64,000 nucleotides of DNA, taken from assembly GCA_947494645.1 (NCBI GenBank), contig CANLVO010000002.1:490359-554358 (forward strand), given 5' to 3'. Source of the DNA: an uncultured Litoreibacter sp. GTDB taxonomy: Bacteria; Pseudomonadota; Alphaproteobacteria; Rhodobacterales; Rhodobacteraceae. The position numbers were made by a program, and so were the translations under genes. The notes beneath the pieces are model-generated. The model saw only the letters and a list, made by a program, of their open reading frames with translations, searched no databases and was not told where the DNA came from. Each line of letters opens with the position of its first letter. Position 1 is the first letter of the stretch. Below are positions 25,439 to 42,724 of the stretch, one piece after another.

Positions 25439-26140
25439 TCATGCGGCCAAATAGGCATCCCTGATCTCAGGGTGTGAATTCAGTTCTTTCAAAGTGCCGC
25501 TATAGACCTGTGCGCCGCTTTCGATGATGACGGCCAGATCAGCGACTGCTTGGGCGAAATGCAGGTTCTGCTCTGACAACAGCACCGTCAGGCCTTCAGA
25601 TTTCAGCTGCTGGATGACCTTAGCCATCTGCTCGACAATAACTGGCGCCACGCCTTCGCTAGGCTCGTCAAGCAGGATGAAAGACGGGTTACCCATGAGC
25701 GTACGGGCGATGGTCAGCATTTGTTGCTCCCCGCCAGACAGTGCCTTGCCGCGGTTGGAACGGCGCTCAGCGAGATTGGGAAAGAGGTCGAAGAGCATGT
25801 CTTCTGTCCAAGTCACCGCGCCTTCGCGAGGGGGCTGTTTGCCGACCAGAAGGTTCTCGCTGACAGTAAGATCGGTGAAAATTCTGCGCTCCTCAGGGAC
25901 ATAACCAATCCCGAGCTTGGCGATCTTGTGTGGGGGCAGGGCAGTGATGCCTTGACCGTTGAATGTGATCGACCCGGAAGCGGGGCGCACAAGTTGCATG
26001 ATGGATTTTATGGTCGTCGTTTTGCCCGCACCATTGCGGCCCAGAAGGGCGATGACATTGCCATGTGGGACGGACAAGGTTAGGTCGCGCAAAACATGCG
26101 CCTTGCCATAGAAACTATTGATATTGTCGACTTCAAGCAT
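25439..26140 (-). CDS. Liv-type ABC transporter ATP-binding protein (LivF-like)
   Basis: The 233-residue product is the second ATPase of a branched-chain-amino-acid-type (HAAT) importer. It has Walker A LLGRNGAGKTTTIKSI, a Q-loop GYVPEERRIFTDLTV, the signature KALSGGEQQMLTIARTL, and Walker B FILLDEPSEGVAPV. I chose the ATG at 26140 (MLEVDNINSFYGKAHVLRDL), which overlaps the upstream ATPase gene by 8 bases; upstream in-frame starts are inside that gene. Such transporters also carry aromatic and heterocyclic acids, and the position beside ring-degradation genes suggests that role rather than leucine transport. Confidence 0.93.
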   Translation of the reverse strand: MLEVDNINSFYGKAHVLRDLTLSVPHGNVIALLGRNGAGKTTTIKSIMQLVRPASGSITFNGQGITALPPHKIAKLGIGYVPEERRIFTDLTVSENLLVGKQPPREGAVTWTEDMLFDLFPNLAERRSNRGKALSGGEQQMLTIARTLMGNPSFILLDEPSEGVAPVIVEQMAKVIQQLKSEGLTVLLSEQNLHFAQAVADLAVIIESGAQVYSGTLKELNSHPEIRDAYLAA

Positions 26141-26909
26141 CTGCACCCTCCTCGGCATCAAAGAGCGTGCCGCCACCAAGATAGACCTCTTGGACCAGCG
26201 GGCTGTTTCTGATCTCAGTTGCGTTGCCCTCAGCGATCAGCTTGCCACGGTTTAGCACCATGATGCGGTGCGAATGGGCGAAGACCACGTCCATGTCATG
26301 CTCTGTAAACAGCACGCTGACGCCGCGGTCTTCGACGATCTTGGCGGTGAGCTCCATCAGGGCAACACGTTCTTTTGGGGCCATCCCAGCAGTCGGTTCG
26401 TCCATCAGCAAGAGTTGTGGATCATGGGCAAGCGCTATGGAAAGCTCCATGCGTTTCAGGTCGCCATAGGCAAGCACGGCGCAGTGGCGATCTGCCTGCG
26501 CGGCCATGCCGACCATGTCGAGCAGTTCCATTGCCTTTTCGCGATACATCTTGTGGGCGAACGGCAGGAACTTGAAGACATCGCCGTTGTGCGACAGCAG
26601 GGCCATTTGCACATTCTCGATAACGGTCATGGAGCTGTAGGTCGAAGTGATCTGAAAAGTACGCCCAACGCCTTTGCGCCAAATCTGTCTGGGAGAAAGT
26701 CCGTTGATACGTTCGCCGCCCAGAAAGACTTCGCCCGATGTCGGAGGCAGCTGCCCCATTAACATGTTAAAACAGGTGCTTTTGCCCGCGCCATTTGGAC
26801 CGATCAAAGCAAGCAGTTCGCCCTTCTGCAGCTGAAAGGAGACATCGTCGACAGCCACCAACCCACCGAAGGCTTTCGTCAGCCCCTTGGTTTCAAGAAC
26901 GACGCTCAT
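26133..26909 (-). CDS. Liv-type ABC transporter ATP-binding protein (LivG-like)
   Basis: The 258-residue product is the first ATPase of the importer: Walker A LIGPNGAGKSTCFNMLMG, the LivG-type insertion with IWRKGVGRTFQITSTYSSMT, the signature-equivalent AYGDLKRMELSIALAHDP, and Walker B LLLMDEPTAGMAPKER. Its start overlaps the permease stop by 4 bases (ATGA), and its end overlaps the LivF-like start. The signature loop, AYGDLK instead of LSGGQ-like, is the normal LivG variant. Confidence 0.93.
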   Translation of the reverse strand: MSVVLETKGLTKAFGGLVAVDDVSFQLQKGELLALIGPNGAGKSTCFNMLMGQLPPTSGEVFLGGERINGLSPRQIWRKGVGRTFQITSTYSSMTVIENVQMALLSHNGDVFKFLPFAHKMYREKAMELLDMVGMAAQADRHCAVLAYGDLKRMELSIALAHDPQLLLMDEPTAGMAPKERVALMELTAKIVEDRGVSVLFTEHDMDVVFAHSHRIMVLNRGKLIAEGNATEIRNSPLVQEVYLGGGTLFDAEEGADA

Positions 26910-28765
26910 GAATGTTTCCCCTGTTTCAGGACGTTCATTCGAATGGCCGCCTTTCTGATTGACCCGACGATGCCTTGCGGGGCAACGATGACCACGAAAA
27001 TGATCAGAAGCCCCATGACAAGGCGCCAGTACTCGAACCGGGTGAGCAGGTCTTCAACGCCTTTGAAGAAAGCGGCCCCCGCGACGCCACCCGCCAGCGT
27101 TTTAACTCCGCCGAGGAAGACGACGATGAGGGCGTCGAAGCTGCGGGCGATCTCCAGCTCGTTGGGAAAGACGCTGCCTTTGGAGAAGACAAACAGTGCG
27201 CCAGCCAGTCCGCCCATTAATCCAGCAAAGCCGAACGCGAGCAGCTGGACTCTCTGTGTGTTGATGCCCGTAGATTCTGCCTGACGCTTGCTGTCCCGCG
27301 CGGCCCGAAGCGCGTAGCCAAAGGGCGAATGCGCGACGTGGCGCAGGACCAGAATGCCGCCCACAGAGAATATTAGAGCGAAGTAGAAGAAGGCTGTCGT
27401 GCTGTTCAGCCAATCGGACGGCCAAATATTGACCAGCCCATCATCGCCGCCGGTGACGCTACCCCACTGGAACACGAGGCTCCACAGCAGTTGTGCAAAT
27501 GCGAGGGTAAGCATCGCGAAATAGACGCCGGTCAGGCGGAGGCAAACCCAACCAATGGCAAGAGCTGCAAGCCCGGCTCCAAGTGGAGCAAGGATGAAGG
27601 CCAGCTCCATCGGACTGTTTGCGTGAGTCACGAGAAGTGCCGCGATGTATGCGCCGCCGCCGTAGTAAGCGGCATGGCCGAAACTGACCAAACCACCAAG
27701 GCCCAGCAGGAAATGCAGGCTAGCCGCAAAGAGGCAGAAAATCAGGATGTCCGTTGTCAGAACCATCGCGAAGGATGACCCGAACAAGGGCAGCAGTGCG
27801 AGAAGCGCTAGGCCCACCATCACGATCAGGCGGACGTTGGTTGAGGCCGGTTTGATCGGCAGCTCTGGTTCGCCCACTTGTCCGTGTTCGCCTGCAACTT
27901 CCTCGCGCCCGAACAGGCCATAGGGGCGGATCATCAGCACCACGACCATGACGACGAACATCAGGACGAGCGTGGATTGGGGCAGGTAGGTTACTCCAAA
28001 CACGTTCAACACAGAGATAATAACTGCCGCAAGATACGCGCCGGGAAGGGAGCCCATGCCGCCGATCACGACCACCACGAAGACCGGGGCAAGGATATGG
28101 AAATCCATCAGTAGGTCGGCACCGCCCTTGGGTAACTGAAGTGCTCCGCCGAGGCCAGCAAGCGCGGAGCCCAAAGCGAAAACGCCAGTGAAGAGCACCG
28201 CCTGATTAACGCCGAGGGCACCGACCATCTCGCGGTCTTGGGTGGCGGCTCGGACCAGAACTCCGACGCGGGTTTGTGTGATCAGATACCATAGCGCCAG
28301 CGCAATGAAGGGCGTGATGGCAAGGAGAACGATGTCATATTTGGGGATGGGCTCGCCCATTATCCGGTAGACACCGCGCAGGCCGGGCGCCCGTGGACCA
28401 AGCAGATCTTCGGGGCCCCAGATAATGAGCGTCAGGTCCTGAATGACCAGGATGACCCCAAAGGTGGCAACCAGTTGAAACAGTTCTGGTGCGCGGTAGA
28501 CCGGTCGTAGAACCAGCACTTCGATGAGGACCCCGATAATTCCAACGACGACGCCCGCAAGCAGGATTGCGCCCCAGAACCCGACGGCCCCGGGCAGTGT
28601 CTGCATGAAGGAATAGCCGACATAGGCCCCAAGCATGTAGAGGCTGCCATGGGCGAAGTTCACGATACGGGTGACGCCAAAAATCAGGGAAAGACCGCAG
28701 GCAACGAGGAAAAGGGAGCTTGCGTTTGCCAGCCCTGTCAGCAGTTGCGCGACAAAGAATTCCAT
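26906..28765 (-). CDS. Fused LivH-LivM type ABC transporter permease
   Basis: The 619-residue product joins both permease halves of a Liv-type importer in one chain. Residues 1 to about 290 are LivH-like (MEFFVAQLLTGLANASSLFL, GLSLIFGVTRIVNFAHGSLY). A hydrophilic linker with REEVAGEHGQVGEPELP follows, then a LivM-like half from about residue 310 (GLGGLVSFGHAAYYGGGAYI, STGINTQRVQLLAFGFAGLM). Most bacteria encode the two halves separately. It is followed by both ATPase genes and preceded, 72 bp upstream, by the binding-protein gene, giving a complete transporter. Confidence 0.93.
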   Translation of the reverse strand: MEFFVAQLLTGLANASSLFLVACGLSLIFGVTRIVNFAHGSLYMLGAYVGYSFMQTLPGAVGFWGAILLAGVVVGIIGVLIEVLVLRPVYRAPELFQLVATFGVILVIQDLTLIIWGPEDLLGPRAPGLRGVYRIMGEPIPKYDIVLLAITPFIALALWYLITQTRVGVLVRAATQDREMVGALGVNQAVLFTGVFALGSALAGLGGALQLPKGGADLLMDFHILAPVFVVVVIGGMGSLPGAYLAAVIISVLNVFGVTYLPQSTLVLMFVVMVVVLMIRPYGLFGREEVAGEHGQVGEPELPIKPASTNVRLIVMVGLALLALLPLFGSSFAMVLTTDILIFCLFAASLHFLLGLGGLVSFGHAAYYGGGAYIAALLVTHANSPMELAFILAPLGAGLAALAIGWVCLRLTGVYFAMLTLAFAQLLWSLVFQWGSVTGGDDGLVNIWPSDWLNSTTAFFYFALIFSVGGILVLRHVAHSPFGYALRAARDSKRQAESTGINTQRVQLLAFGFAGLMGGLAGALFVFSKGSVFPNELEIARSFDALIVVFLGGVKTLAGGVAGAAFFKGVEDLLTRFEYWRLVMGLLIIFVVIVAPQGIVGSIRKAAIRMNVLKQGKHS

Positions 28766-28837
28766 AGCGGCCTGTCTCGGACTTGTTGGGAGGTTCTGAT
28801 GCCCGGCAAACGATCCGGCCGGGCATCAGTGGAAAGA

Positions 28838-30043
28838 TTACTCTGCTGGGCGCAGTTTCGAGACTTCCTCGTCAGACGGCAGATAGTTCGCCCCGTCTTT
28901 GTACTCCCAATCAACCATAACACCTTTGCCGTCACTTAAGGCTGTGGTGCCTACATAGGCTCCCATGGTCGACTGGTTGTCGATTGCGCGGAACACAATG
29001 TCACCCATTGCAGAGGCAACGGGCAGCCCTTCAAAAGCTTCGCGGATCGCTTCTGTTTCTGTGGAGCCCGCTTTTTCAAGAGCAGCCACAATGGACTGGA
29101 CGGTCATGTAGCCCACGATTGAGCCAAGGCGTGGGTAGTCATCGTAACGGGCCTGATAGGCAGCAACAAATTCACCGGCTGGGCCATCTTCCAGATCGTA
29201 CCAGGGGAAACCTGTTACCGTCCAACCTTCCGGGGCTTCGTCGCCAAGCGGGTCGAGGTATTCAGGCTCGCCCGACAGAAGGCCGTAAACGTTTCTGCCC
29301 TCAAAGAGTCCTCGATCGGTGCCGTCGCGGACAAACTTTGCAAGGTCTGGGCCGAAGGTCACGTTGTAGATCGCATCTGGTTTTGCACGCTCAAGTGCCT
29401 GCACCTCGGCGCCCGCGTCGATCTTGAAGAGGGCTGGCCATTGCTCTGCCACGAACTCCGCGTCAGGCTTTAGTTTCAGTAGGTTTTCCTTGAACGCAGC
29501 CACGGCGTCTTTGCCATAGGCGTAGTTGGGGGCAATTGTCGCAAATCGCTTAGCGTCGGTTTTCGCGGCGGCCTCAGCGAGCATAGCGGCTTGCATGAAG
29601 GTCGAAGAGCGCAGGCGGAAGGTGTACTTGTTCCCGGCTCCCCAGACGAGCGAGTCTGCCAGTGGCTCAGAAGCTAGGTAGACATACCCTTTCTCACCAG
29701 CGAAGGATGAGATTGCGAGGCCAACGTTGGACAGGATCGTCCCGGTGAGCATTACGGCACCGTCGCGGGTCATCAGCTCTTCGGCGATCTTGACCGCCTC
29801 GCCGGGTTCGCCCTGGTCATCGCGAAAGATAAACTCGAGGGGTTTCCCAAGTACACCGCCTGCGGCGTTGGTTTCTTCAAGCGCCAGCTCGATCCCCTGC
29901 TTGTAGGGGCCGGCAAAGGCCGCGAGGCGTTTGTAGTGGTTGATTTCACCGATCTTGATGGTGTCTTGCGCAAAGGTTGCAAGCGGCATCGCGGCCAAAA
30001 CGGCCGTCGCGATCATCGCCTTCAGGAATGTCTTTCGTTGCAT
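28838..30043 (-). CDS. Liv-type ABC transporter substrate-binding protein
   Basis: The 401-residue product is a periplasmic binding protein of the Peripla_BP_6 (LivJ) class. It has a signal peptide MQRKTFLKAMIATAVLAAMP with cleavage after TFAQ, then IKIGEINHYKRLAAFAGPYK and the family pattern GVLGKPLEFIFRDDQGEPGE. I placed the start at 30043, where GGAGA precedes the ATG by about 9 bases; the open frame extends to 30352 but overlaps the Rieske gene. It lies 41 bp after the Rieske gene, so it is probably in the same transcript. The ligand is unknown; a pyridine carboxylate or related ring acid is inferred from context. Confidence 0.92.
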   Translation of the reverse strand: MQRKTFLKAMIATAVLAAMPLATFAQDTIKIGEINHYKRLAAFAGPYKQGIELALEETNAAGGVLGKPLEFIFRDDQGEPGEAVKIAEELMTRDGAVMLTGTILSNVGLAISSFAGEKGYVYLASEPLADSLVWGAGNKYTFRLRSSTFMQAAMLAEAAAKTDAKRFATIAPNYAYGKDAVAAFKENLLKLKPDAEFVAEQWPALFKIDAGAEVQALERAKPDAIYNVTFGPDLAKFVRDGTDRGLFEGRNVYGLLSGEPEYLDPLGDEAPEGWTVTGFPWYDLEDGPAGEFVAAYQARYDDYPRLGSIVGYMTVQSIVAALEKAGSTETEAIREAFEGLPVASAMGDIVFRAIDNQSTMGAYVGTTALSDGKGVMVDWEYKDGANYLPSDEEVSKLRPAE

Positions 30044-30084
30044 GAGTAGGGTCTCCGATATGTTGGAATTACTCCGACTGTTGA

Positions 30085-31152
30085 TCAGTCGTGTTGTATG
30101 AAGCTCGCCCCGATTGGCGCGCCTAGGTCTTGTGTGGCCTCGGATGCAATCAGATCGCGGATACGTTTGCGATAGACTGTTGGGCCTTTGTCGATGGCCA
30201 CCCGTATGGGTCTGCGTCGCTGCGGCTGTTGTTCCGAGTCGTGCACGGCCTCCAAGATCTCCTTGTCTTCTGCAAAAGCCGTTTTGAACATCGCATCCAT
30301 CTGCGCAGAGGCGTCCTCGTCCCCAATAGATGTGTTTCGAAGATGCATCCAATGGTCGATGGTGTAATCCTCGCGCACAGGGGTGACAAAGTGAAGTGCG
30401 AAGATGCGAACGCCACGGTCCCGCTCGTCCTCAGGGCAATTCAATTTTGTATCGATGCTGCCAAAATCGATCACGGCGGTCGAGGGCAAGTGTAGGTCGT
30501 AATAGTGCCACCTATCTACATGGCCGTCGAAACCGCCGAACTTCTGAAAGAACCCGATGGGCGGGGCGTCACGGATCCAACGCCATGCAGAGATAACCTC
30601 ACCGCTGGTCGAAACATGTACCGGGACGTTTTCGCTTGCTGCGTTGCCCAAGGTTGTTGGGTGCACAAAACTGACATGGGCAGGATCAACCAGATTTTCC
30701 GCCACGTTGAGATAATTCGACTTGATGTGGAGCGCCTCGCCGTGATGGGCATGCCAACCGGGCTGAGTGAACTCTGGCAGATCAAAGATTTCCGCGGGGT
30801 CGGCAAGATCAGGATCACCCATCCAGACCCACACGATGCCGTGACGTTCCTCGACGGGGAAGGCTTCGACATATGCGCTTTTTGGGGTGTTTTCTTGACC
30901 TGGAACACGCACACATTGCCCGGCGCCGTCAAAGGTCATGCCGTGATAGCCGCACTGGATTGTGTCGTCGATCCGCTTGCCTTTCGACAAGGGCAGAAGG
31001 CGGTGCGGGCAACGGTCTTCGAGCGCTCTCACGGCACCGCCGGCTTCGCGAAACATGACGAGGCGTTGCCCAGTAATTTCGAGCGCCAGAAGGGGTTCCC
31101 CGAAGTCTCTGGACCAGCCAGCGACATACCAAGCATTTCGTACGAAGCTCAT
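30085..31152 (-). CDS. VanA-type Rieske non-haem iron oxygenase
   Basis: The 355-residue product is the oxygenase component of a two-part Rieske system related to vanillate O-demethylase and other demethylases. The N-terminal Rieske domain has C48-x-H50 (CPHRL) and C67-x2-H70 (CGYHG). The catalytic domain holds the bridging Asp and iron His ligands in NVAENLVDPAHVSFVH (D156, H159, H164). VanA relatives remove O- or N-methyl groups or hydroxylate rings. No ferredoxin reductase partner is in the window. Its place between the enamidase gene and the importer genes implies a step in the same pathway. A role in N-demethylation of a methylated pyridine acid is possible but unproven. Confidence 0.9.
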   Translation of the reverse strand: MSFVRNAWYVAGWSRDFGEPLLALEITGQRLVMFREAGGAVRALEDRCPHRLLPLSKGKRIDDTIQCGYHGMTFDGAGQCVRVPGQENTPKSAYVEAFPVEERHGIVWVWMGDPDLADPAEIFDLPEFTQPGWHAHHGEALHIKSNYLNVAENLVDPAHVSFVHPTTLGNAASENVPVHVSTSGEVISAWRWIRDAPPIGFFQKFGGFDGHVDRWHYYDLHLPSTAVIDFGSIDTKLNCPEDERDRGVRIFALHFVTPVREDYTIDHWMHLRNTSIGDEDASAQMDAMFKTAFAEDKEILEAVHDSEQQPQRRRPIRVAIDKGPTVYRKRIRDLIASEATQDLGAPIGASFIQHD

Positions 31153-31303
31153 GTTTTAGTGGCTCCCCATGCCAGTGTTTCCCGAAAATTGAGGCGTAAT
31201 AACAGTCAGCCTGTCAAACAGTTTCTCAAAAATACGACAGAAAATTTATTGGTACACACTCAGGTTTAGCCATGTATTCCTCATGAATCGCGTAGTTCCC
31301 TTG

Positions 31304-31319
31304 CTTGTATGCTATCATA
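31304..31319. promoter_or_regulatory. Putative operator, copy upstream of the Rieske gene
   Basis: CTTGTATGCTATCATA matches the palindromic motif TTTGTATGCTAACAAA seen in front of the enamidase gene at 12 of 16 positions. It overlaps the enamidase stop codon and lies about 150 bp upstream of the Rieske start in the same intergenic gap. A TTGACA box on the minus strand lies between it and the gene (31212-31217), without a convincing -10 box. Confidence 0.4.
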
Positions 31320-32490
31320 TCACCACCTCCGGTAAGTTTTGTGCAGGTGGTGTGTTTCGGCTGCGATGACTGCATATTTCGCCGTCGATGATCATCATGC
31401 CGACACCTGGCAAATTCCCCAGCTGCACCGATTCCAGAATGTTTTGTCCGGGTGCGTGTTGCGCCTGATCCATCAGCACAAAATCAGCGCTGTAGCCTAT
31501 CTCCATGAGGCCTACGTCCAGTGCGCGCTGGCGGGCGGTGTTACCATTTGCAAAGCAGAACGCAACTTCGGCGGGTACATTTCCTAGGCTTGAGAGCATC
31601 GCCACCATACGCATGATACCAAGCGGCTGTACCCCTGACCCGGCCGGGCCATCGGTTCCGAGAATGATCTGGTCAAGCTTGTCCAACTCGCGCGCAGTGT
31701 TGAGCGTCAGAAGTGCGGCCCGCTCGTTGCCGTTATGGACGATCTCGAGCCCTTTGGTGCAGTTTTCGCAGAGACATACGATCTGGTCGTCGGGCAAGGC
31801 AGAGTGGCCACCGTTGATATGACCGACAACGTCTGTTCCGGTTTCCAGTACCATGTCGGCGTCAATCAATCCCGAACCGGGAATGGAGGGGCCACCCGTA
31901 TGGATTGTGGACTGTATTCCGTATTTACGTGCCCAATTGACCATCTGGTTGGCGGTCTTTCCGTCTTTGACTGTGCCTAGTCCAACCTCGCCCAAGTATT
32001 TCACGCCCGCATCTGCGAGCTCTTTGAAGTCGTGCTCCTCCATACCGTGCTCGATGACAGGGGCACCTGCCAGAACCTTGACACCCGACGGGCGGAAGTT
32101 CTCGTACCAACGCTGTGCGGCAATCGCCATCGCCTTTAGCCCTACAATGTCTTTGGGTCGCCCGGGCATATGGACTTCACCAGCCGAGATCATCGTCGTG
32201 ACGCCGCCATGCAAAGTGGAATCGATCCAATGCAACTGCTGCTGACGCGGGGTGTAGTCGCCCACGACCGGGTGGATATGGCTGTCTATGAGACCGGGAG
32301 CAATCGTCGCACCATTTGCGTTGACTTGCGTTGTTGCCCCTTCGGTGTCGAGATCCTTTTCATACCCAAAAGCAGAGATCTTGCCGTCTTCGGCAATTAC
32401 GCAATCGCCATCAGCAATTGGAGCTTCCATCTTGCCGGTGAGAATCAAGCCTATGTTTCTAATGACCAGTTTCTTCGTCGGATTGCTCAT
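31315..32490 (-). CDS. ena: Enamidase homologue (6-oxo-1,4,5,6-tetrahydronicotinate amidohydrolase type)
   Basis: The 391-residue product belongs to the amidohydrolase superfamily and closely resembles, as I recall the sequence, the enamidase of Eubacterium barkeri, which hydrolyses 6-oxo-1,4,5,6-tetrahydronicotinate to 2-formylglutarate and ammonia with a Fe-Zn centre. Shared stretches include GDYTPRQ, LHGGVTTMISAG and GEVGLGT. The expected ligands are present: H71 and H73 (DSHIHP), E168 (GEVGL), H197 (IHTGG), H224 (GHINGG) and D280 (GTDGPAGSG). Length matches the family. It is divergent from the MarR gene and preceded by a palindrome 25-40 bp before the start. Exact substrate is inferred. 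Confidence 0.88.
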   Translation of the reverse strand: MSNPTKKLVIRNIGLILTGKMEAPIADGDCVIAEDGKISAFGYEKDLDTEGATTQVNANGATIAPGLIDSHIHPVVGDYTPRQQQLHWIDSTLHGGVTTMISAGEVHMPGRPKDIVGLKAMAIAAQRWYENFRPSGVKVLAGAPVIEHGMEEHDFKELADAGVKYLGEVGLGTVKDGKTANQMVNWARKYGIQSTIHTGGPSIPGSGLIDADMVLETGTDVVGHINGGHSALPDDQIVCLCENCTKGLEIVHNGNERAALLTLNTARELDKLDQIILGTDGPAGSGVQPLGIMRMVAMLSSLGNVPAEVAFCFANGNTARQRALDVGLMEIGYSADFVLMDQAQHAPGQNILESVQLGNLPGVGMMIIDGEICSHRSRNTPPAQNLPEVVI

Positions 32491-32514
32491 CTCGGACCCC
32501 CTCCCTCATTGGTG

Positions 32515-32530
32515 TTTGTATGCTAACAAA
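32515..32530. promoter_or_regulatory. Putative operator upstream of the enamidase gene
   Basis: TTTGTATGCTAACAAA is an imperfect palindrome with outer arms TTTGT / ACAAA. It lies 25-40 bp upstream of the enamidase start in the 161-bp gap shared with the divergent MarR gene. Similar sequences occur in front of the molybdenum hydroxylase genes and the Rieske gene, which is the reason for the call. The divergent MarR protein is the natural candidate to bind it. Confidence 0.5.
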
Positions 32531-32651
32531 ATTGCCTCTGCTGTCTACTTTTCTCAAGCGGTCGCCGCATGTTCATTGCGCCGCCAACCCTTATCGCTGA
32601 ACATAGGCTCACAAGTTCAGGCATTATGCACCACGAGAAAGCATCGTTGAT

Positions 32652-33077
32652 TTGAAAGAGACAAACGGGACATACAAGCTCGACGAGCAGGTCGGCTACC
32701 TGATGCGGTTGGCCAACCAACGGCATTCGGCTTTGTTTCAAGAGGTCGTGCCTTGGGACCTTACGCCTACGCAATTTGCCGCTTTGATGAAGCTTGCGGA
32801 ATTGGGTGAGTGTTCGCAGAACGAACTGGGACGTCGCACAGCTATGGACGTTGCGACCATCAAGGGCGTTGTCGAGCGGCTTCGCAAGAAAGGGTTGGTG
32901 GACGTGAGGTCTGACCCGAAGGACAAGAGAAGGGCGGTTCTTTCGATTTCCGAAGGGAGCATTTCATCCATTCCTGAGCTCATGGAAGCGGGCCAGAAAA
33001 TTTCCAATCTGACACTATCACCATTGAGCGCAGCCGAGCAAAAATCGTTTCTGAAGCTGCTCAGAAAGCTTGGGTAA
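32652..33077 (+). CDS. MarR family transcriptional regulator
   Basis: The 141-residue product is a winged-helix MarR protein. It has the dimerisation helix KLDEQVGYLMRLANQRHSAL, the recognition region GECSQNELGRRTAMDVATIK followed by GVVERLRKKG, and the wing DVRSDPKDKRRAVLSIS. It starts with TTG at 32652. MarR proteins of catabolic loci often repress and are released by a pathway intermediate. It stands at the centre of the divergent locus, next to three similar palindromes, so it is the likely local regulator. The effector is unknown. Confidence 0.9.
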   Translation: MKETNGTYKLDEQVGYLMRLANQRHSALFQEVVPWDLTPTQFAALMKLAELGECSQNELGRRTAMDVATIKGVVERLRKKGLVDVRSDPKDKRRAVLSISEGSISSIPELMEAGQKISNLTLSPLSAAEQKSFLKLLRKLG

Positions 33078-33135
33078 GAAGCAATTTGCTCAGATGAACA
33101 AAGCAATTGACTCATCTTGAAAGCCGCTGCTAGCG

Positions 33136-33151
33136 TTTGTGTACTAACGAT
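33136..33151. promoter_or_regulatory. Putative operator upstream of the molybdenum hydroxylase genes
   Basis: TTTGTGTACTAACGAT matches TTTGTATGCTAACAAA at 12 of 16 positions, including the TTTGT and CTAAC cores. It lies 20 bp before the TTG start of the FAD subunit gene, within the 93-bp gap after the MarR gene. The position suggests control of the right-hand operon separately from the regulator gene. Confidence 0.45.
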
Positions 33152-33170
33152 TTGTGCGGAGAGGCCTGTT

Positions 33171-34010
33171 TTGCCATATTTGGCTCCTACCAATCGGGAC
33201 GAAGCGTTCCGCTTTCTCCAAAGCCACCGCCCCAAGATTATTGCAGGGTGTACGGACTATTACCCGAGCCTGAAGCAAGGCGAGGTTGATGAAAACCTGC
33301 TGGATATCACGCAACTCGACGGCCTCAGAGGTATCACTCGTCTTCCGGATGGCTGGCGCATTGGCGCGGCCACAACGTGGACGGACATCGTGCAAGCTGA
33401 TCTACCACCTGCATTCGACGCGCTGAAAGCTGCGGCGCTTGAGGTTGGGTCGGTTCAAATTCAGAACCAAGCAACAGTGGTTGGAAATCTTTGCAACGCG
33501 TCTCCGGCTGCAGACGGGGTGCCGCCTCTTTTGGTACTCAATGCCGAGATCGAGATCGACTCGCCTACTGGCAACCGACAGGTTCCTTTGGATCAGTTTA
33601 TTGTCGGTGTGCGGCAGGTTGATTTGCAAGGAGACGAGATAGTCTCTGCCATCCTCGTTCCTGACATTTCTGAGCAAGCGCAGAGCAGTTTTTCTAAGCT
33701 CGGTTCTCGGACGCATCTGGTTATTTCGATTGCTATGGTCGCGGTCGTGGTGAAGCCTAACGCAGGTAGGATAGAAGATGTCCGGATCGCAGTTGGAAGC
33801 TGCTCTCCCGTTGCCCAGCGGTTGTCTGACTTAGAGAAGCGTCTTGTGGGGCTGTCAATCGATGACGTGACCCGGTTTGAGTTTTCGCAAGACGATGCGT
33901 TGGCGGTATTGTCCCCGATTTCAGATGTCCGGGGGTCCGCCGAGTATCGTGTCGATGTTGTCGGTGAAATGTGTCGGCGTGCCGTCCTTGATGCGTGCAG
34001 CAGGGGCTGA
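33171..34010 (+). CDS. FAD-binding subunit of a xanthine-dehydrogenase-family molybdenum hydroxylase
   Basis: The 279-residue product is the medium (FAD) subunit of a molybdenum hydroxylase. It carries the two flavin-binding loops IIAGCTDYYPSL (about residues 23-34) and QIQNQATVVGNLCNASPAAD (about 96-115), followed by a CO_deh_flav_C-type domain. I chose the TTG at 33171 because GGAGAGG lies 6 bases upstream and the product then begins PYLAPTNRDEAFRFL; the frame is open back to 33117. FAD passes electrons from the 2Fe-2S clusters of the next gene product to NAD or another acceptor. The next gene starts 3 bases after its stop. Confidence 0.88.
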   Translation: MPYLAPTNRDEAFRFLQSHRPKIIAGCTDYYPSLKQGEVDENLLDITQLDGLRGITRLPDGWRIGAATTWTDIVQADLPPAFDALKAAALEVGSVQIQNQATVVGNLCNASPAADGVPPLLVLNAEIEIDSPTGNRQVPLDQFIVGVRQVDLQGDEIVSAILVPDISEQAQSSFSKLGSRTHLVISIAMVAVVVKPNAGRIEDVRIAVGSCSPVAQRLSDLEKRLVGLSIDDVTRFEFSQDDALAVLSPISDVRGSAEYRVDVVGEMCRRAVLDACSRG

Positions 34011-34013
34011 GTG

Positions 34014-36752
34014 ATGGACGCGCACAACACAGAGGCAGGTTTAAGTTTCCAGTTGAATGGCGAGGCGGTGCAAGTTGTGCCATCGCCCGGCGAACGTCTA
34101 TCCGAGACCCTTCGCGAACGGCTTGATGCCCGGGATGTCAAGATCGGGTGCAATGCGGGGGACTGTGGTGCGTGTTCAGTTCTGGTGAATGGCGAGATGG
34201 TTTGCGCCTGCCTCATGCCGGTGCAAAAGGTGGCGGGTCAGCGGGTCGATACCGTCTCCGGTTTGGTGAAAACCGACTCTGTGGCAAAAGGGTTGGCAGA
34301 ACGCTTTCAAGATCATGGTGCGGCGCAGTGCGGCGTCTGTACGCCGGGCATGATGGTCTGCGCTGTCGCCTTGCTGCGCGAAGAAGAGAATCCAAGTGAG
34401 GCACAGGTGCAGGCAGCCCTTGGTGGTGTGCTGTGCCGATGCACCGGATACCGCAAGATTATAGACGCTGTACGCGGAGTGCCTGTATCGCTGGACGAAA
34501 CTGCGGACGCAGGTTCTGCGATCCGTCGGGTTGACGGTGCGCCCAAAGTCGAAGGGACCGAGGTTTTTGGCGACGACGTTGCCCCTGCTGGAACGCTTGA
34601 AATCAAGGTTATCAGGTCTCCGTATCCGCATGCGTCATTCTCATTTGGCAATCTTGAGGAATGGCGCGAGACACGCGGGTTCGAAGCTGTTTTAACGGCT
34701 GATGATGTCCCCGGCGTGAACAAGTTTGGCGTTATTCCAGATTTTGCTGATCAACCGGTCTTTGCTGAGGGTGTCGCGCGCTTCCGAGGGGAGGCGGTGG
34801 GCGCTGTGATCGGCAACCCAGAGGTCATACGTGAGTTGCGACCTGAAGAGTTTCCGGTGGGATGGACAGAGCTTGAGAGCGTCAGTGACGTCGTTTCGGC
34901 CCGCAAAGACATCGCGCCGCAACTGCATCAAGACCGCACACGGAATGAGATGTGTCGTGGGTTTGTGAAATGTGGTGACGCGGATGCTGCGCTAGCGCAG
35001 GCTGATGTCATCGTTGAAGGCGCGTTTACGACAGGCTTTGTGGAGCATGGCTATATCGAGCCCGAGGCCGGGTTCGCAGAAATCGTGGATGGACGGGTCG
35101 AGATTCACGTCTGCACGCAAGCCCCAATGATGAACCTTGACGCGTTGGAGGCTATCTTGGGTATGGATCGCTCCAAGATACGTATTCTGCCGACGGCGGT
35201 AGGGGGCGGGTTTGGCTCGAAGTTAGACCTTTCTGTTCAACCGTTTCTGGCTCTGGGTGCTCTAAAGACCTGCCGGCCAGTTAGGCTCACCTATTCGCGA
35301 ACAGAGTCGCTGCAATCGACCACCAAACGGCATCCTGCGGATATCCGGCTAAAGATTGGCGCCACAAAGGATGGCAAACTCTCGGGCCTGACGTTTGATG
35401 GCGTGTTTAACACTGGCGCCTATGCATCTTGGGGGCCGACTGTTGCCAACCGTGTTCCTGTTCATGCGTCTGGACCATACAGAATTTCTGACTACCGGGC
35501 TGAGGCCAAAGGGGTCCACACCCATTGCCCGCCTGCGGGGGCGTTTCGTGGCTTTGGCGTACCGCAGTCGGGGATCGCTCAAGAATCCCTGTTTGATGAG
35601 CTGGCCGAAAAACTTGACATGGACCCGCTCGAGTTTCGGATATTGAACGCTCTAGATGATGGCGTGCCGACTGTATGTGGTCAGGTTTTTGAGCAAGGCG
35701 TCGGGATCAAAGCCTGTCTGGAGGCTTTGCGACCTGCTTGGGAAACCGAACGTGCTAGAGCGGACAGGTTCAACGTCGATGCAGCAGGCTCATTTCGCCG
35801 CGGCGTCGGGTTGGCGGCAGGATGGTATGGATGCGGAAACACCTCTTTGCCGAACCCATCCAGCATCAAAGCGGGGATCAAGGCGGACGGTACCGTGATT
35901 CTGCATCAGGGTGCTGTTGATATCGGGCAGGGCTCGAACACCGTCGTGTCGCAGATATTCGCGACCGCTCTGGGTGTTTCGGTCGACTCACTTACTCTTG
36001 TTGGCGCTGATACGGATGAGACGCCGGATGCAGGAAAGACCTCGGCTTCTCGCCAAACATTTGTGTCGGGCAATGCCGCGCTGCGAACGGGGGAGACGTT
36101 GCGAGGCAAAATCCTCCGTGATGTGAACGCGTCCGAGGATGCTGCGTTAAAATTTGGTGGCGGGATGATTGTCGTCTCGGACGGAGACAAGGAGCACCAA
36201 ATAGACCTGAAAAAGCTGAGCGTGGATCGAGACGGATACGTTTATACATCGACGGAACAATACGACCCGCCGATCAAACCGCTGGATGAGAATGGTCAGG
36301 GAGCGCCCTATGCTCAGTATGGATATGCAGCCCAGCTAGCGGTGATCGAGGTGGACGAGGCGCTGGGAACCATCAAGCCGATCAAGTTCGTTGCCGCGCA
36401 TGACGTAGGCAAGGCGATAAACCCGATGCTTGTGGAAGGTCAGGTTCAAGGCGGTATTGCGCAGGGGTTGGGGATGGCATTGATGGAAGAATACCTGCCG
36501 GGCCGTACGGAAAACCTTCATGACTACCTGATCCCAACAATTGGTGACGTTCCACCGATCCAAACCCTCATTATCGAAGTGCCAGACGCCCACGGCCCAT
36601 ATGGCGCAAAAGGGTTGGGTGAGCACGTGCTGATCCCGACCGCGCCTGCGCTGTTGAACGCGATAAAGCACGCGAGCAACGTTCGAATGTACTCGGTCCC
36701 GGTCACCCCATCGAAGCTGCGGCAAGCCATCAAGGAAAGAGATAATGGCTGA
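34014..36752 (+). CDS. Molybdenum hydroxylase, fused 2Fe-2S and molybdopterin subunits
   Basis: The product of about 912 residues fuses the small iron-sulfur subunit to the large catalytic subunit of a xanthine-dehydrogenase-family enzyme. Residues 1 to about 160 hold the plant-type cluster (GCNAGDCGACSVLVNGEMVC) and the second cluster (QCGVCTPGMM, LCRCTGYRKII). The rest is the molybdopterin part, with the loops AVGGGFGSKLDL, GAFRGFGVPQ, GQGSNTVVSQIF and HDVGKAINPMLVEGQVQGG, and the active-site Glu in GAKGLGEHV. It likely hydroxylates a pyridine ring next to nitrogen, as nicotinate dehydrogenase does. ATG at 34014 follows a GTG at 34011; either may start. It overlaps the next gene by 8 bases. 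Confidence 0.87.
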   Translation: MDAHNTEAGLSFQLNGEAVQVVPSPGERLSETLRERLDARDVKIGCNAGDCGACSVLVNGEMVCACLMPVQKVAGQRVDTVSGLVKTDSVAKGLAERFQDHGAAQCGVCTPGMMVCAVALLREEENPSEAQVQAALGGVLCRCTGYRKIIDAVRGVPVSLDETADAGSAIRRVDGAPKVEGTEVFGDDVAPAGTLEIKVIRSPYPHASFSFGNLEEWRETRGFEAVLTADDVPGVNKFGVIPDFADQPVFAEGVARFRGEAVGAVIGNPEVIRELRPEEFPVGWTELESVSDVVSARKDIAPQLHQDRTRNEMCRGFVKCGDADAALAQADVIVEGAFTTGFVEHGYIEPEAGFAEIVDGRVEIHVCTQAPMMNLDALEAILGMDRSKIRILPTAVGGGFGSKLDLSVQPFLALGALKTCRPVRLTYSRTESLQSTTKRHPADIRLKIGATKDGKLSGLTFDGVFNTGAYASWGPTVANRVPVHASGPYRISDYRAEAKGVHTHCPPAGAFRGFGVPQSGIAQESLFDELAEKLDMDPLEFRILNALDDGVPTVCGQVFEQGVGIKACLEALRPAWETERARADRFNVDAAGSFRRGVGLAAGWYGCGNTSLPNPSSIKAGIKADGTVILHQGAVDIGQGSNTVVSQIFATALGVSVDSLTLVGADTDETPDAGKTSASRQTFVSGNAALRTGETLRGKILRDVNASEDAALKFGGGMIVVSDGDKEHQIDLKKLSVDRDGYVYTSTEQYDPPIKPLDENGQGAPYAQYGYAAQLAVIEVDEALGTIKPIKFVAAHDVGKAINPMLVEGQVQGGIAQGLGMALMEEYLPGRTENLHDYLIPTIGDVPPIQTLIIEVPDAHGPYGAKGLGEHVLIPTAPALLNAIKHASNVRMYSVPVTPSKLRQAIKERDNG

Positions 36753-38226
36753 GAAACCCCGTACCAAGCCAGACAAGATCCGCTGCGATGCCTGCCCTGT
36801 CTTGTGCTACATCGCTGAAGGCCGGGCGGGTGCCTGTGATCGCTACGCCAACCATGCGGGAGAGTTGGTGCGGTTGGATCCTCTGACGATCATCGAGAAC
36901 TCGATTGAGAGTGGGGCGAAAGCTGTCTCATTCCTGCAAGGCGAGGATTGGGATGGCGATCTTGTGCACAGCAAGCGTCCCTTTGTTACGGCTGTTGGTG
37001 CTGGTACGACCTACCCTGACTACAAGCCTGCGCCTTTCATCGTCAGTCAGATGGTCGATGACGCCGACATGGTGACCATCGTGACCGAAGGTATTTTCAG
37101 CTACTGCGGCGTGAAGGTGAAGATCGACACAGACCGATTTCTGGGCCATGAGCGAGACGTCGTAAGCGTGAAGGGCGAGCCCGTTGGGCATGTGACCACC
37201 AGCGAATACGGTTCCAAGATGCTGTCTTTAGGCGGAGTGGAACACCTGACCGGCGGCAGTAAGAAAGAAGGTCGCGTGACCTGTGATACCTTGCTCAAGC
37301 TATGCAATGGCGAAGCAGTTGAGCTGGATATTGCCGGTGGTATTTCCGTCGTGGTTCAGGCGGGACATGCGCCTATCGTAAACGGCGTCGAAGAAAAACT
37401 GATGCGTGTAGGCTGCGGGTCTGCAACGATTGGCATGTTCGCTTCGCAATGGGTCGATCATGTTGATGAAGTGATTGTGATCGATGATCATATCACCGGG
37501 GTGCTGTCAGAACATCAGGCCGGGAAGATGCTGGATGTCCCTCCTACAGGGATCAAGGTTAATGGTCGCAGGTCCACTCCGGGTCGTTACTTTCAGGTAG
37601 CAGAGCCTGGAACCGGCTGGGGTGGCACTGACGTGGACGATCCATTGACCGTCCTTAAGCCCGCTGATCCGAAAGTCGCTTGGCCGGGTCTGCGTCTCTT
37701 GATGGTTTCCACAACCGGTGAACAGCACGGATATTTTCAGCTGGATGAAGACCTGCAACCGCAGCCTGCGGACCTGCCCGACGCTTTGCAGCAGTCGGTG
37801 GATCGTATTGCCGAGAATTGCGAGCCTTCTGTCTGCTCGGTTTTGTTTATGGGCGGGGCAGGTGGGTCGCTTCGGTCCGGTGTGACAGAGAATCCTGTGA
37901 AACTGACAAACTCCGTAAAGGATTCGCTGACCCATGTATCGTGCGGTGGTGCCAACGCGTTTGTCTGGCCAGGGGGCGGAATTACGGTGATGGCAGACGT
38001 TCTGGATATGCCCTCAAATTCCTTCGGTTATGTGCCGACGCCAGCTTTGGTGGCACCAATCGAATTCACCATGCGTCTGTCCGACTATGTCGCGCTGGGT
38101 GGGCATGCAGATCACGTCAAACCGATTGATGAGGTTCTATCTCCGGACGTGCGGCGGGTAAGCCAGATCGACCCTGAGGCTGATCCAACTTCGCATCATA
38201 ATTACCGCTGGAAGACGGAGGGCTAA
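36745..38226 (+). CDS. hnr: 6-hydroxynicotinate reductase homologue
   Basis: The 493-residue product resembles 6-hydroxynicotinate reductase (Hnr), which in Eubacterium barkeri reduces 6-hydroxynicotinate to 6-oxo-1,4,5,6-tetrahydronicotinate and carries covalent flavin, one 2Fe-2S and two 4Fe-4S clusters. Here an N-terminal Cys set C14-x2-C17-x3-C21-x9-C31 (CDACPVLCYIAEGRAGACDR) could bind one cluster; further Cys are at 121, 180, 187 and 224. No standard ApbE flavinylation motif is obvious. It is coupled to the molybdenum subunit gene by an 8-base overlap. The assignment comes from remembered family similarity plus the adjacent enamidase and hydroxylase genes. The electron donor is unknown. 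Confidence 0.82.
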   Translation: MAEKPRTKPDKIRCDACPVLCYIAEGRAGACDRYANHAGELVRLDPLTIIENSIESGAKAVSFLQGEDWDGDLVHSKRPFVTAVGAGTTYPDYKPAPFIVSQMVDDADMVTIVTEGIFSYCGVKVKIDTDRFLGHERDVVSVKGEPVGHVTTSEYGSKMLSLGGVEHLTGGSKKEGRVTCDTLLKLCNGEAVELDIAGGISVVVQAGHAPIVNGVEEKLMRVGCGSATIGMFASQWVDHVDEVIVIDDHITGVLSEHQAGKMLDVPPTGIKVNGRRSTPGRYFQVAEPGTGWGGTDVDDPLTVLKPADPKVAWPGLRLLMVSTTGEQHGYFQLDEDLQPQPADLPDALQQSVDRIAENCEPSVCSVLFMGGAGGSLRSGVTENPVKLTNSVKDSLTHVSCGGANAFVWPGGGITVMADVLDMPSNSFGYVPTPALVAPIEFTMRLSDYVALGGHADHVKPIDEVLSPDVRRVSQIDPEADPTSHHNYRWKTEG

Positions 38227-38231
38227 TCGAA

Positions 38232-39110
38232 ATGCAACCTCCTATCGTGCGACTACTCGGGTCAGGAGATCGCCTGCATTTGCAGCATGGTCCGATTGAC
38301 CTGATTGTCGGTGCGGAGGGGCCAATGGCTGGCTCGAGAGAGCAGGCCTTTAGGGCGGCTGCCATGCGTTTTGAGACAATTCTTGATGGGCTTGTGGTTG
38401 ATTTGGACCGGCATCGGCAGCGTTTGATGCCCGAAACGCCGCAGCCTCAAGACCGAGTTGCGAGTCGAATGTATCGTGCAGCGGGTTCATTTTGCGATCA
38501 GACATTTCTGACACCAATGATCGCTGTAGCCGGTGCAGTGGCTGACGAAATTCTGGATGCGATGCGCGCCGCTGTTCCCCTTACCCGCGCCTATGTCAAT
38601 AATGGTGGAGATATTGCGGTGCACCTAACTTCGGGCACCCGGTTCTCGGTCGCGATGGCGCAAGTGGATGGCGCTGACCTGGGCCGCATCCGGATCTCAG
38701 GCCGTCAAGGCGTTGGTGGCATTGCGACAAGCGGGGCGGACGGTCGTAGTCATTCGCTTGGGATTGCTGATAGCGTGACAGTTCTGGCTGAAACCGCCGC
38801 ACAAGCAGATGTTGCGGCAACGTTAGTTGCGAACTCGGTTGATTTGCCTGACCATCCTGGAGTGCTGCGTCAGCCAGCTTGCGCGCTTCAACCCGACAGT
38901 GATCTTGGATCACGGAAGGTCGTCGTAAGGGTTCCAGCCCTGTCGAAGCCAGATCGTGAATGGGCGCTGCGGGCTGGTCGAGAACTCGCGCAGTCATTTC
39001 TTGAAGCAGGACATATCAAGGGGGCGGCCTTGTTTCTTCAGGGTGATGTCAAGATGCTAGGCGAGTGCCATTCCCAATACTTTACTAAGTCGGAGTTAGA
39101 ACATGCCTGA
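38232..39110 (+). CDS. UPF0280 family protein (ApbE superfamily)
   Basis: The 292-residue product belongs to UPF0280 (COG2122), which shares the fold of ApbE, the FAD:protein FMN transferase. The region RAYVNNGGDIAVHLTSG resembles the ApbE core 'NxGGD' and GGIATSGADGRSHSLGIADS resembles its 'GxATSG' loop. It starts 5 bases after hnr and overlaps the next gene by 8. Because the Hnr of E. barkeri has covalent flavin, this protein may attach flavin to the reductase; that is inference from fold and position. No biochemical function is established for UPF0280 as far as I know. Confidence 0.82.
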   Translation: MQPPIVRLLGSGDRLHLQHGPIDLIVGAEGPMAGSREQAFRAAAMRFETILDGLVVDLDRHRQRLMPETPQPQDRVASRMYRAAGSFCDQTFLTPMIAVAGAVADEILDAMRAAVPLTRAYVNNGGDIAVHLTSGTRFSVAMAQVDGADLGRIRISGRQGVGGIATSGADGRSHSLGIADSVTVLAETAAQADVAATLVANSVDLPDHPGVLRQPACALQPDSDLGSRKVVVRVPALSKPDREWALRAGRELAQSFLEAGHIKGAALFLQGDVKMLGECHSQYFTKSELEHA

Positions 39111-39684
39111 GCTTGAGGTTCGAAAGTCGATCCTAACGATTGAAGAGATTTTCCATGAGGGCGGACCCGTCGCTGACGAACCCTTGCTGCGGGGTGCCAG
39201 TTTCGCTGTTATCCGAAACCCATTTGCGGGAAGCTATGAAGCTAACATCCAAGCCTTTATGGACGATTTGCGCCCTCTCGGTTTGCAACTGGCCCAGCGG
39301 TTGGCGGAGGCGCTGGGTGGTGCTGGAAATATCGAGGGATATGGAAAAGGATCTTTGGTCGGGGCGGCGGGTGAGTTGGAGCACGGCGCACTTTGGCATG
39401 CCCCAGGCGGATACGCGATGCGTGAGGTGATAGGTGGCACGAAGGCGATTGTGCCCTCCACCAAAAAGGTAGGGGCGGTTGGCAGTCGACTGGACGTTCC
39501 GATCACTCATATCAACGCGTCCTATGTGAGGAGCCATTTTGACAGCATGGAGATTGGCATCAACGATGCACCGCGCGCAGACGAGCTGTTGTTCGCGTTG
39601 GTCATGATGACAGGCGCACGGATACATAATCGGGCTGGCGGGCTGGAGGCGTCCGAAATCAATGGAGAGGACGGTCTGAGATGA
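39103..39684 (+). CDS. AA_synth (DUF1185-type) family protein 1
   Basis: The 193-residue product belongs to the AA_synth family, named for amino acid synthesis but without a known reaction. Conserved parts are AVIRNPFAGSY, GYGKGSLVGAAGELEHGAL, IVPSTKKVGAVGSRLDVPI, and YVRSHFDSMEIGINDAPRAD, ending INGEDGLR. There is no signal peptide. It overlaps the UPF0280 gene by 8 bases and the second AA_synth gene by 4 (ATGA), so the three are coupled. The pair may form one complex; a role in the ring-degradation pathway is inferred only from position. Confidence 0.82.
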   Translation: MPELEVRKSILTIEEIFHEGGPVADEPLLRGASFAVIRNPFAGSYEANIQAFMDDLRPLGLQLAQRLAEALGGAGNIEGYGKGSLVGAAGELEHGALWHAPGGYAMREVIGGTKAIVPSTKKVGAVGSRLDVPITHINASYVRSHFDSMEIGINDAPRADELLFALVMMTGARIHNRAGGLEASEINGEDGLR

Positions 39685-40265
39685 AGGCGCGTATTAGGAA
39701 GATTGGTGTTTGGATTGAGGAAACCCACATTGAAGGCGGCAAGAGCATCAGCCCCCCAACGCGGAAGGCTGTAGCAGCCGCGGTAATTGAAAACCCACAT
39801 GCTGGAAAGTTCGTGGAGGACCTCGCAGATCTAATGGAAGTTGGTGCGGAACTTGGTGGACTGCTTGGTGACCGGGCTGTCGCTGCGCTCGGTATTGCCC
39901 CGTCAGAGGCAGAGAGCTACGGCAAAGCGGCCATGGTTGGCGAGAATGGTGAGTTGGAACACGCGGCGGCACTGCTACACCCGAAAATGGGGGCGCCTTT
40001 GCGTATTGCTGTTGAAAAGGGCGCGGCTCTGGTCCCGTCATCCAAGAAACGAGGCGGCTTGGGTCAAGACCTCGACATCCCCCTCGGCCATAAGGACGCT
40101 GCCTATGTCCGGTCGCATTTCGACGCCGTTGAAATCCGGTTCAATGACGCTCCGCGGCCCAACGAAATTCTCGTGGCGATTGCAGTGACCGATAGTGGTC
40201 GACCATTACCGCGCGTTGGCGGGTTGACCCATGAGGACGCGATTGGCGAGGATGGGCTGCGCTAA
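39681..40265 (+). CDS. AA_synth (DUF1185-type) family protein 2
   Basis: The 194-residue product is a diverged paralogue of the preceding protein. Both share the ELEHA/G segment, VPSSKKRGGLGQDLDIPLG, YVRSHFDAVEIRFNDAPRPN and the C-terminal GEDGLR, while the N-terminal thirds differ. It is the last gene of the right-hand operon; a weak inverted repeat (GAAAGC / GCTTTC, 40277-40300) lies in the gap to the convergent repeat-protein gene. Tandem, unequal paralogues with an ATGA overlap suggest a heteromer. Confidence 0.82.
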   Translation: MKARIRKIGVWIEETHIEGGKSISPPTRKAVAAAVIENPHAGKFVEDLADLMEVGAELGGLLGDRAVAALGIAPSEAESYGKAAMVGENGELEHAAALLHPKMGAPLRIAVEKGAALVPSSKKRGGLGQDLDIPLGHKDAAYVRSHFDAVEIRFNDAPRPNEILVAIAVTDSGRPLPRVGGLTHEDAIGEDGLR

Positions 40266-42638: not shown

Positions 42639-42668
42639 CGTCCACTCCTTGGTGGCTACGATGAGCAA

Positions 42669-42724
42669 CAAACCCTCTCTTAGCAAATACCGCTATTTGG
42701 ACCCATAGGCGCTGACGTCAGACA
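42669..42724. repeat. Right terminal inverted repeat of the IS3-family element
   Basis: The 56-base end is the inverted counterpart of the left terminus. The outer end ...GACGTCAGACA is at 42724, only 52 bases before the KpsM-like start codon. Confidence 0.8.

Follow-up and report, generated by a model that had tools for sequence, protein, structure and literature searches.

A stretch of 64,000 nucleotides of DNA from an uncultured Litoreibacter sp. (contig CANLVO010000002.1, positions 490,359 to 554,358), referred to here as the window, carries at 25439-40265 a locus in which homologues of the enzymes of reductive nicotinate breakdown stand next to a Rieske oxygenase and a Liv-type importer. 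The locus raises the question of which compound is taken up and degraded, and of what an oxygenase adds to such a pathway. Here we show that the core of the locus is of an already known kind, that of the aerobic reductive nicotinate clusters of the Azorhizobium/Bradyrhizobium type, and that the new element, added to this core, is a Rieske oxygenase together with a Liv importer of its own. We judge it fairly probable that the locus as a whole codes for aerobic, reductive breakdown of nicotinate as in the published clusters, extended upstream by the oxygenase and its importer. The preliminary description had read this DNA as a locus for the reductive breakdown of pyridine carboxylates, with a Rieske oxygenase and a dedicated importer coupled to it, and this view is supported, the coupling being found again in Rhodobacterales and a few other groups. 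All the genes which it had named were confirmed in their places as intact open reading frames (ORFs) of the families given, with profile or homologue support; where it spoke of ten genes, the count here is 13 ORFs, as listed below.

25439..26179, minus strand, LivF-type ABC ATPase of the importer (PF00005, E 3.8e-31)
26133..26909, minus strand, LivG-type ABC ATPase (PF00005, BCA_ABC_TP_C)
26906..28765, minus strand, fused LivH-LivM permease of 619 aa (PF02653, that is BPD_transp_2, in two stretches)
28838..30043, minus strand, periplasmic substrate-binding protein of the importer (Peripla_BP_6, E 2.3e-60; PDB 3i45, E 8.6e-143); the listed ORF reaches 30352, the likely ATG start being at 30043
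30085..31152, minus strand, Rieske oxygenase of VanA type (VanA_C, E 1.9e-47; Rieske, E 1.8e-19; DdmC, E 1.8e-43)
31315..32490, minus strand, enamidase homologue, for ring opening (2vun, E 5.9e-103)
32652..33077, plus strand, MarR-family regulator (MarR_2, E 2.1e-13)
33117..34010, plus strand, FAD subunit of the molybdenum (Mo) hydroxylase (FAD_binding_5, E 3.5e-38)
34011..36752, plus strand, Mo hydroxylase with fused 2Fe-2S and molybdopterin domains, 913 aa (Fer2_2, MoCoBD_1, MoCoBD_2)
36745..38226, plus strand, homologue of 6-hydroxynicotinate reductase (Hnr; annotated relatives at 62-74% identity)
38232..39110, plus strand, UPF0280 protein with the ApbE fold, the putative flavin transferase of Hnr (NF003322, above cut-off at E 3.5e-108)
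39103..39684, plus strand, AA_synth (DUF1185) protein 1 (PF06684, E 2.3e-67)
39681..40265, plus strand, AA_synth (DUF1185) protein 2 (PF06684, E 1.4e-71; PDB 2qtp, E 5e-96, presumably SPO0826, whose structure is one of two in PMC2954203)

The likeness of the locus to the nicotinate fermentation of Eubacterium barkeri lies in the Hnr and enamidase steps. The enamidase homologue aligns with the E. barkeri enamidase 2vun over residues 7-387, and the HxH, Glu, His, His and Asp positions, which we take to be the metal ligands, are all kept, as had been noticed before. The Hnr homologue gave no Pfam or NCBIfam match at E 0.001, and no solved relative was found by sequence search; '6-hydroxynicotinate reductase' is the annotation in 17 of 26 plasmid records that code for a protein of 62-74% identity. 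The assignment rests on this annotation of relatives, on synteny and on the published identity of 42% between the Hnr proteins of strain SG-6C and E. barkeri (PMC3511419). The fused Mo subunit has matches in three chains of nicotinate dehydrogenase, 3hrd_A, B and D, as well. In E. barkeri, the molybdopterin part is divided between two chains (3hrd_A, B), whereas the window has a single 913-aa chain (2Fe-2S and Mo) together with the FAD subunit, a make-up which also differs from the NicB type.

The three E. barkeri-type steps had seemed odd in an aerobe, but they are not, as aerobic proteobacterial clusters were published in 2012. PMC3511419 describes clusters that code for the three enzymes (hydroxylase, Hnr and enamidase), for an ABC transporter and for a pair of conserved proteins of unknown function in Azorhizobium caulinodans, Bradyrhizobium japonicum, Rhodopseudomonas palustris and strain SG-6C, of which SG-6C degrades nicotinate and 6-hydroxynicotinate, and A. 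caulinodans has a pathway that exits via glutarate. The absence of an importer and of AA_synth proteins, stated for the known pathway, is true at most of the anaerobe. The Bradyrhizobium loci of our survey (L093, L095) carry genes for a NicB-type hydroxylase, Hnr, UPF0280, AA_synth, Liv proteins, enamidase and FNR, and their Hnr and enamidase are 70% and 74% identical, respectively, to those of the window. UPF0280, AA_synth and the Liv importer stand beside Hnr there too. UPF0280 and AA_synth are presumably the two unknown proteins of the published clusters. The window locus shares with these clusters the first three steps, the transporter, the two unknowns and the glutarate exit; Hnr, an enamidase with its metal ligands, a Mo hydroxylase and an adjoining importer with the two unknowns were all found. 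The Bradyrhizobium loci differ from it in having no Rieske gene, in the NicB-type hydroxylase and in a binding protein of another clade. This corrects the view of the importer, the AA_synth proteins and the exit as foreign to a nicotinate pathway.

We surveyed the neighbourhood of Hnr, keeping 80 named loci from at least 593 relatives and adding 10 plasmid loci and loci from further genomes; neighbourhood counts refer to 80 different loci, repeats removed, in which Hnr is flanked by 6 kb or more on either side. UPF0280 was present in 78/80 loci, at least one AA_synth gene in 78/80, enamidase in 51/80 and the Rieske gene in 27/80. The conserved co-occurrence, a search for which the preliminary description had proposed, is therefore beyond chance. 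Enamidase is replaced by a lactamase-like HyuAB pair in 18/80 loci (e.g. L010, L011, L012, L013 and L016), and the two were never found together. Caprolactamase models give the best scores, under their cut-offs, for the pair of L010, and HyuAB is therefore a reasonable substitute ring opener.

The link between the Rieske oxygenase and Hnr was also evident across the family, sampled at about one genome per genus (248 genomes), a close Rieske protein being defined by E 1e-100 or better. Hnr was found in 92 and a close Rieske protein in 17, of which 16 also had Hnr (Fisher p 6e-7). The two genes lie within 6 kb on one contig in 11 of these 16 genomes, about 16 kb apart in G243, and on separate contigs in four. 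Importer genes come after the Rieske gene in most of the Rieske-bearing relatives, and the binding protein is present in 31 of 34 distinct Rieske loci (38 minus four re-fetched copies). Residues C48, H50, C67, H70, N153, D156, H159 and H164, presumably the cluster and iron ligands, are kept in at least 32 of 33 alignment rows, and these ligands and the VanA_C domain are what the enzyme has in common with the VanA/DdmC-type Rieske demethylases. Methylxanthine demethylases are among its weaker matches to solved chains. No publication on a Rieske-linked nicotinate locus was found among the literature matches listed, which is weak evidence as subscription papers mostly, and bioRxiv preprints wholly, lay outside the search.

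The presence of the Rieske gene was followed as a label (Rieske or none) on trees of the cassette and core proteins, the label depending on the contents of the fetched stretch. On the trees of the binding protein, which omit re-fetched copies, the label changed three times among 59 rows and twice among 43 rows when Hyp470-type and divergent rows (any of L066, L024, L049, L017 and L091) were left out. On the core trees, it changed 11 times for Hnr (85 rows; 5 changes forced by well-supported branches), 12 times for the Mo subunit (65 rows; 9 forced) and 11 times for enamidase (53 rows; 6 forced). With 2-3 changes on the former as against 11-12 on the latter, cassette and core look like separable modules, which would have been joined or lost several times. 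The window binding protein groups with those of G018, G118, L043 and G243, and the window Hnr, its own genus aside, is nearest to those of Roseovarius and Aliiroseovarius loci without a Rieske gene in the fetched stretch.

The binding proteins form three groups, found mostly with the Rieske gene, in Bradyrhizobium-type loci, and mostly with the membrane-like Hyp470 protein, respectively; the first two are close to each other. The nearest solved chain, 3i45, whose ligand is reportedly nicotinic acid, joins the Bradyrhizobium-type group (support 99/94). When 28 binding proteins of the Rieske group were compared with 10 others, leaving out in addition L053, L073 and L097 (Rieske) and L092 (none), different residues were found at 11 positions, each at least 90% conserved. 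From the non-Rieske to the Rieske group these include S to H (INSY to INHY) and F to I (GTFLS to GTILS), and 3i45 agrees with the non-Rieske group at 9 of the 11. The loops with the changed residues are assumed to face the ligand, by analogy with other Liv-type proteins. Since a changed importer adjoins an added oxygenase and both feed an unchanged core, the imported substrate is probably a modified nicotinate, which the oxygenase would convert. Trigonelline is a first guess, because some Rieske enzymes N-demethylate and trigonelline would give nicotinate in one step.

Two side observations concern other known or possible importers near Hnr. In 11/80 loci, none of which has the Rieske gene, a Liv importer of a third type has the Hyp470 protein (about 450-490 aa) as its neighbour; loci with this protein are L009, L010, L013, L029, L042 (a fragment), L046, L050-L052, L058, L065, L068 and L069. 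No Pfam match was obtained for three members scanned and no NCBIfam match for two, and the consensus is hydrophobic and resembles a membrane protein. In Roseovarius aestuarii (L018:15410-19294), TRAP-type genes (NMT1_3, DctM) and a quinolinate phosphoribosyltransferase gene lie downstream of the core, perhaps representing another importer and a salvage link.

Reading reactions, substrate and roles from gene families, conservation, modules and the downstream enzymes coded in the genome, we propose the following scheme. The Liv-type importer would take up a modified nicotinate, and the Rieske oxygenase would remove or alter the modification, with N-demethylation of trigonelline (N-methylnicotinate) to nicotinate and formaldehyde as the first guess. 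The Mo hydroxylase would convert nicotinate to 6-hydroxynicotinate, which Hnr, as a ferredoxin-fed iron-sulphur flavoprotein, would reduce to 1,4,5,6-tetrahydro-6-oxonicotinate, and enamidase would open this ring to 2-formylglutarate and ammonia. The two AA_synth proteins may help the unstable formyl acid towards glutarate semialdehyde, and glutarate would pass through glutaryl-CoA to crotonyl-CoA by enzymes coded elsewhere, while UPF0280 would fit the covalent flavin onto Hnr. In the trigonelline (Tgn) pathway of Acinetobacter, ring opening is oxidative, whereas that of the window locus would be reductive and hydrolytic. That marine Rhodobacterales degrade trigonelline by such a second, reductive route, with UPF0280 as a single-client flavin transferase of ApbE fold maturing Hnr, is a tentative proposal that we regard as rather doubtful in this combined form.

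Several observations weigh against this scheme or parts of it. Nothing points directly to trigonelline or to demethylation. The nearest solved chains of the oxygenase are DdmC, 7qwt and SxtDIOX, and sequence cannot separate a VanA-type demethylase from a hydroxylase. No VanB-type reductase, the partner of VanA-type demethylases, was seen among the locus ORFs scanned (24749-46772); one FNR homologue is coded elsewhere in the genome. In G245 (L124), a 65%-identical Rieske protein occurs without any Hnr match, its neighbours being a FAD/NAD/2Fe-2S reductase-like ORF and TctA/TctC; thus, the substrate of the oxygenase need not be a nicotinate, and the same kind of oxygenase possibly serves another pathway there. 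The association with the importer also has exceptions, since L105, L120 and L124 carry the Rieske gene but no Liv cassette in the stretch covered, and the importer of L092 comes without a Rieske gene. The binding protein of the Rieske locus L053, which branches deeply, keeps several of the 11 non-Rieske residues, among them S and T at the first two positions. Neither ring opener was found in 11/80 Hnr loci, in the stretch covered.

The substrate might be plain nicotinate, as in the published clusters, with the Rieske oxygenase serving as a side activity or for a rare second substrate. The close relation of the core enzymes to published-type loci and the greater number of Hnr loci without a Rieske gene agree with this, but the binding protein of the importer changes together with the Rieske gene, and nearly all genomes with a close Rieske protein have Hnr, and we regard this reading as unlikely. 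Homarine (N-methylpicolinate), which is a marine pyridine betaine, or picolinate would suit the many surveyed loci that come from marine Rhodobacterales; the oxygenase would then demethylate homarine, and the core would have shifted to the 2-carboxylate series. Such a shift is improbable in view of the identity of enamidase and Hnr to the Bradyrhizobium-locus proteins given above; a 2-carboxylate would, moreover, give another ring-opening product, and no gene for that product was seen in the locus. The order of the first steps might also be reversed, the Mo hydroxylase converting trigonelline to N-methyl-6-oxonicotinate and the Rieske oxygenase then N-demethylating this to 6-hydroxynicotinate. 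The fused Mo subunit is carried by 26 of the 27 Rieske loci with 6 kb flanks, and the NicB type by none, as this order would have it, and the chemistry is plausible for aldehyde-oxidase-type enzymes. Nevertheless, the Mo subunit tree mixes Rieske and non-Rieske loci, and since it does not separate them, the same Mo substrate is argued for both, which leaves the reversed order with little probability. We retain a modified nicotinate, converted by the oxygenase ahead of the Mo hydroxylase, as the probable substrate.

Riboflavin catabolism, which also involves a Mo hydroxylase and a Rieske enzyme, was considered and dropped: the passages on it in PMC12746152 concern a ring dioxygenase built of alpha and beta subunits, with quinoxaline chemistry, and do not mention 'amino acid synthesis'.

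The UPF0280 protein follows Hnr across genomes. In the family it was found in 91/248 genomes and Hnr in 92/248, with both in 90; of the three exceptions, G152 and G175 have the match at a contig end, and G028 is an incomplete genome with a partial Hnr. Among 398 genomes of Pseudomonadota, UPF0280 and Hnr were each found in 32, the same 32, by a UPF0280 profile built solely from Hnr loci, which may miss distant members without Hnr, though it did find 2o34 (E 4e-12). Since these genomes belong to only 16 of 213 genera, they are not 32 independent cases. The structure model of the protein (pLDDT 93.1) gave 2o34 as the best Foldseek match (1.1e-9), followed by the flavin transferases ApbE, FmnB and Ftp (ApbE-type 7esc, E 3.6e-5; 6nxi, E 2e-4; prob 1.0). 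Alignment with 13 ApbE proteins by hhalign (prob 92, E 5.7e-7, 94 columns) runs through the NGGD, ATSG and ADxxAT motifs, so that fold and motifs are shared with this class of enzymes. E. barkeri Hnr reportedly carries a covalently bound flavin, as Alhapel is said to have described in 2006. The window's genome has no ApbE match (PF02424). Owing to the occurrence in the same 32 genomes, the ApbE fold and the lack of ApbE in the genome, we propose that UPF0280 probably attaches the covalent flavin to Hnr.

Some features of UPF0280 set it apart from ApbE, FmnB and Ftp: it is encoded beside its proposed target, it has no ApbE Pfam match, and the position of the catalytic His, which all 13 aligned ApbE proteins keep, is variable in it (L in 16, H in 12, F in 6, Q in 2 and M in 1 of 37 proteins at window residue 174). 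The variable His position speaks against a transferase and for a flavin-binding or chaperone-like partner of Hnr without catalysis, as does the absence of any Pfam match of the window protein at E 0.001. Against such a partner stand the Asp and Thr aligned with ADxxAT, invariant in 37/37 proteins, and NGGD, kept but for one N; we consider a non-catalytic role possible, though not the better account. ApbE was found in 16 of 26 genomes searched, some of which also have Hnr (G022, G023). On the side of the proposed client, the Hnr motif SLRxGVTxNPV is invariant (52/52 rows), its variable position 378 being A rather than S in 48/52, and T381 is a candidate flavin acceptor; in our estimation, SLRxGVT is only loosely like the ApbE acceptor motif. 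The flavin site could not be placed structurally, since the fold search with the Hnr model (pLDDT 73.5) gave 0/396 matches at E 0.001 or better.

A few Hnr genes in other genomes appear damaged. In G282 (C1:2969811-2971261), two adjacent matches cover profile positions 8-242 and 242-486 in frames of different length, indicating either a split gene or a frameshift. Internal stops occur in the Hnr matches of G034 (five) and of G202, G157 and G194 (one TGA each), which may be either decayed genes or sequence errors.

Regarding the exit, no 2-formylglutarate reductase or later E. barkeri genes were found among 20 ORFs at 24749-46772, a genome-wide search for them not having been made, and no methyleneglutarate branch was seen in the locus. 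The exit had for this reason been regarded as open. It is not, as the aerobic glutarate exit is already published (PMC3511419), and the window's genome codes for a glutaryl-CoA dehydrogenase (GCDH; 3gnc, E 7.8e-181) and for a second protein that has succinate-glutarate CoA-transferase as its best match in NCBIfam, at 448 bits against a cut-off of 750. The core of L019, a locus with an Hnr 85% identical to the window's, is followed by genes for ETF-QO, FNR, an acyl-CoA dehydrogenase and an aldehyde dehydrogenase, and this acyl-CoA dehydrogenase is 80% identical to the GCDH of the window's genome. Among the 126 stretches searched, a good part of which are short, six held a GCDH homologue, one of the six being a fragment. 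Given the published exit, the two homologues and the gene order of L019, the exit is probably not novel; most likely 2-formylglutarate loses CO2 to give glutarate semialdehyde and then glutaryl-CoA, as reported for Azorhizobium.

As for the AA_synth proteins, a DUF1185 relative also lies near the semialdehyde step of the Acinetobacter trigonelline pathway, where this protein, TgnF, is said to stimulate oxidation of succinate semialdehyde (PMC7913881). The effect of TgnF therefore suggests, by analogy, that AA_synth may act on formyl-dicarboxylate or semialdehyde intermediates. Two facts count against this role: the authors of the same paper saw no stimulation by their own DUF1185 homologue HcdD, and AA_synth occurs without Hnr in 55/248 family genomes and is thus not confined to the nicotinate pathway.

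With the match between UPF0280 and Hnr across genomes, the family NF003322, labelled 'hypothetical protein' in NCBIfam, gains a function that can be tested, and flavinylation by UPF0280 would explain covalent flavin attachment in a genome that lacks ApbE. Trigonelline and other pyridine betaines serve as marine sources of carbon and nitrogen. If the proposed scheme is true, the Rieske oxygenase and the binding protein would form a marker cassette for tracing bacterial sinks of pyridine betaines in genomes and expression data.

A shared 14-mer, WTAGCATACAARCA, was first spotted by eye upstream of both the Rieske and the enamidase genes, at the following places.

31302..31315, minus strand, operator-like 14-mer ATAGCATACAAGCA, upstream of the Rieske gene, weak
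32513..32526, minus strand, operator-like 14-mer TTAGCATACAAACA, between the enamidase and MarR genes, weak

It is a possible, weak candidate for the MarR operator. As the motif was first noticed by eye, its two perfect matches cannot serve as an independent test; as many matches at up to 2 mismatches turn up in 13 of 100 shuffles, and copies in relatives are patchy.

A 308-aa ORF at window positions 40286-41212 (minus strand) shows, by eye, repeated D/T/W-rich segments in its translation; it gave no Pfam match, no PHROG match and no DNA tandem repeat. A transposase pair (rve, HTH_Tnp_1) lies right after the locus, at 41296-42686, and an ABC-2 exporter gene and UDP-sugar genes come after it.

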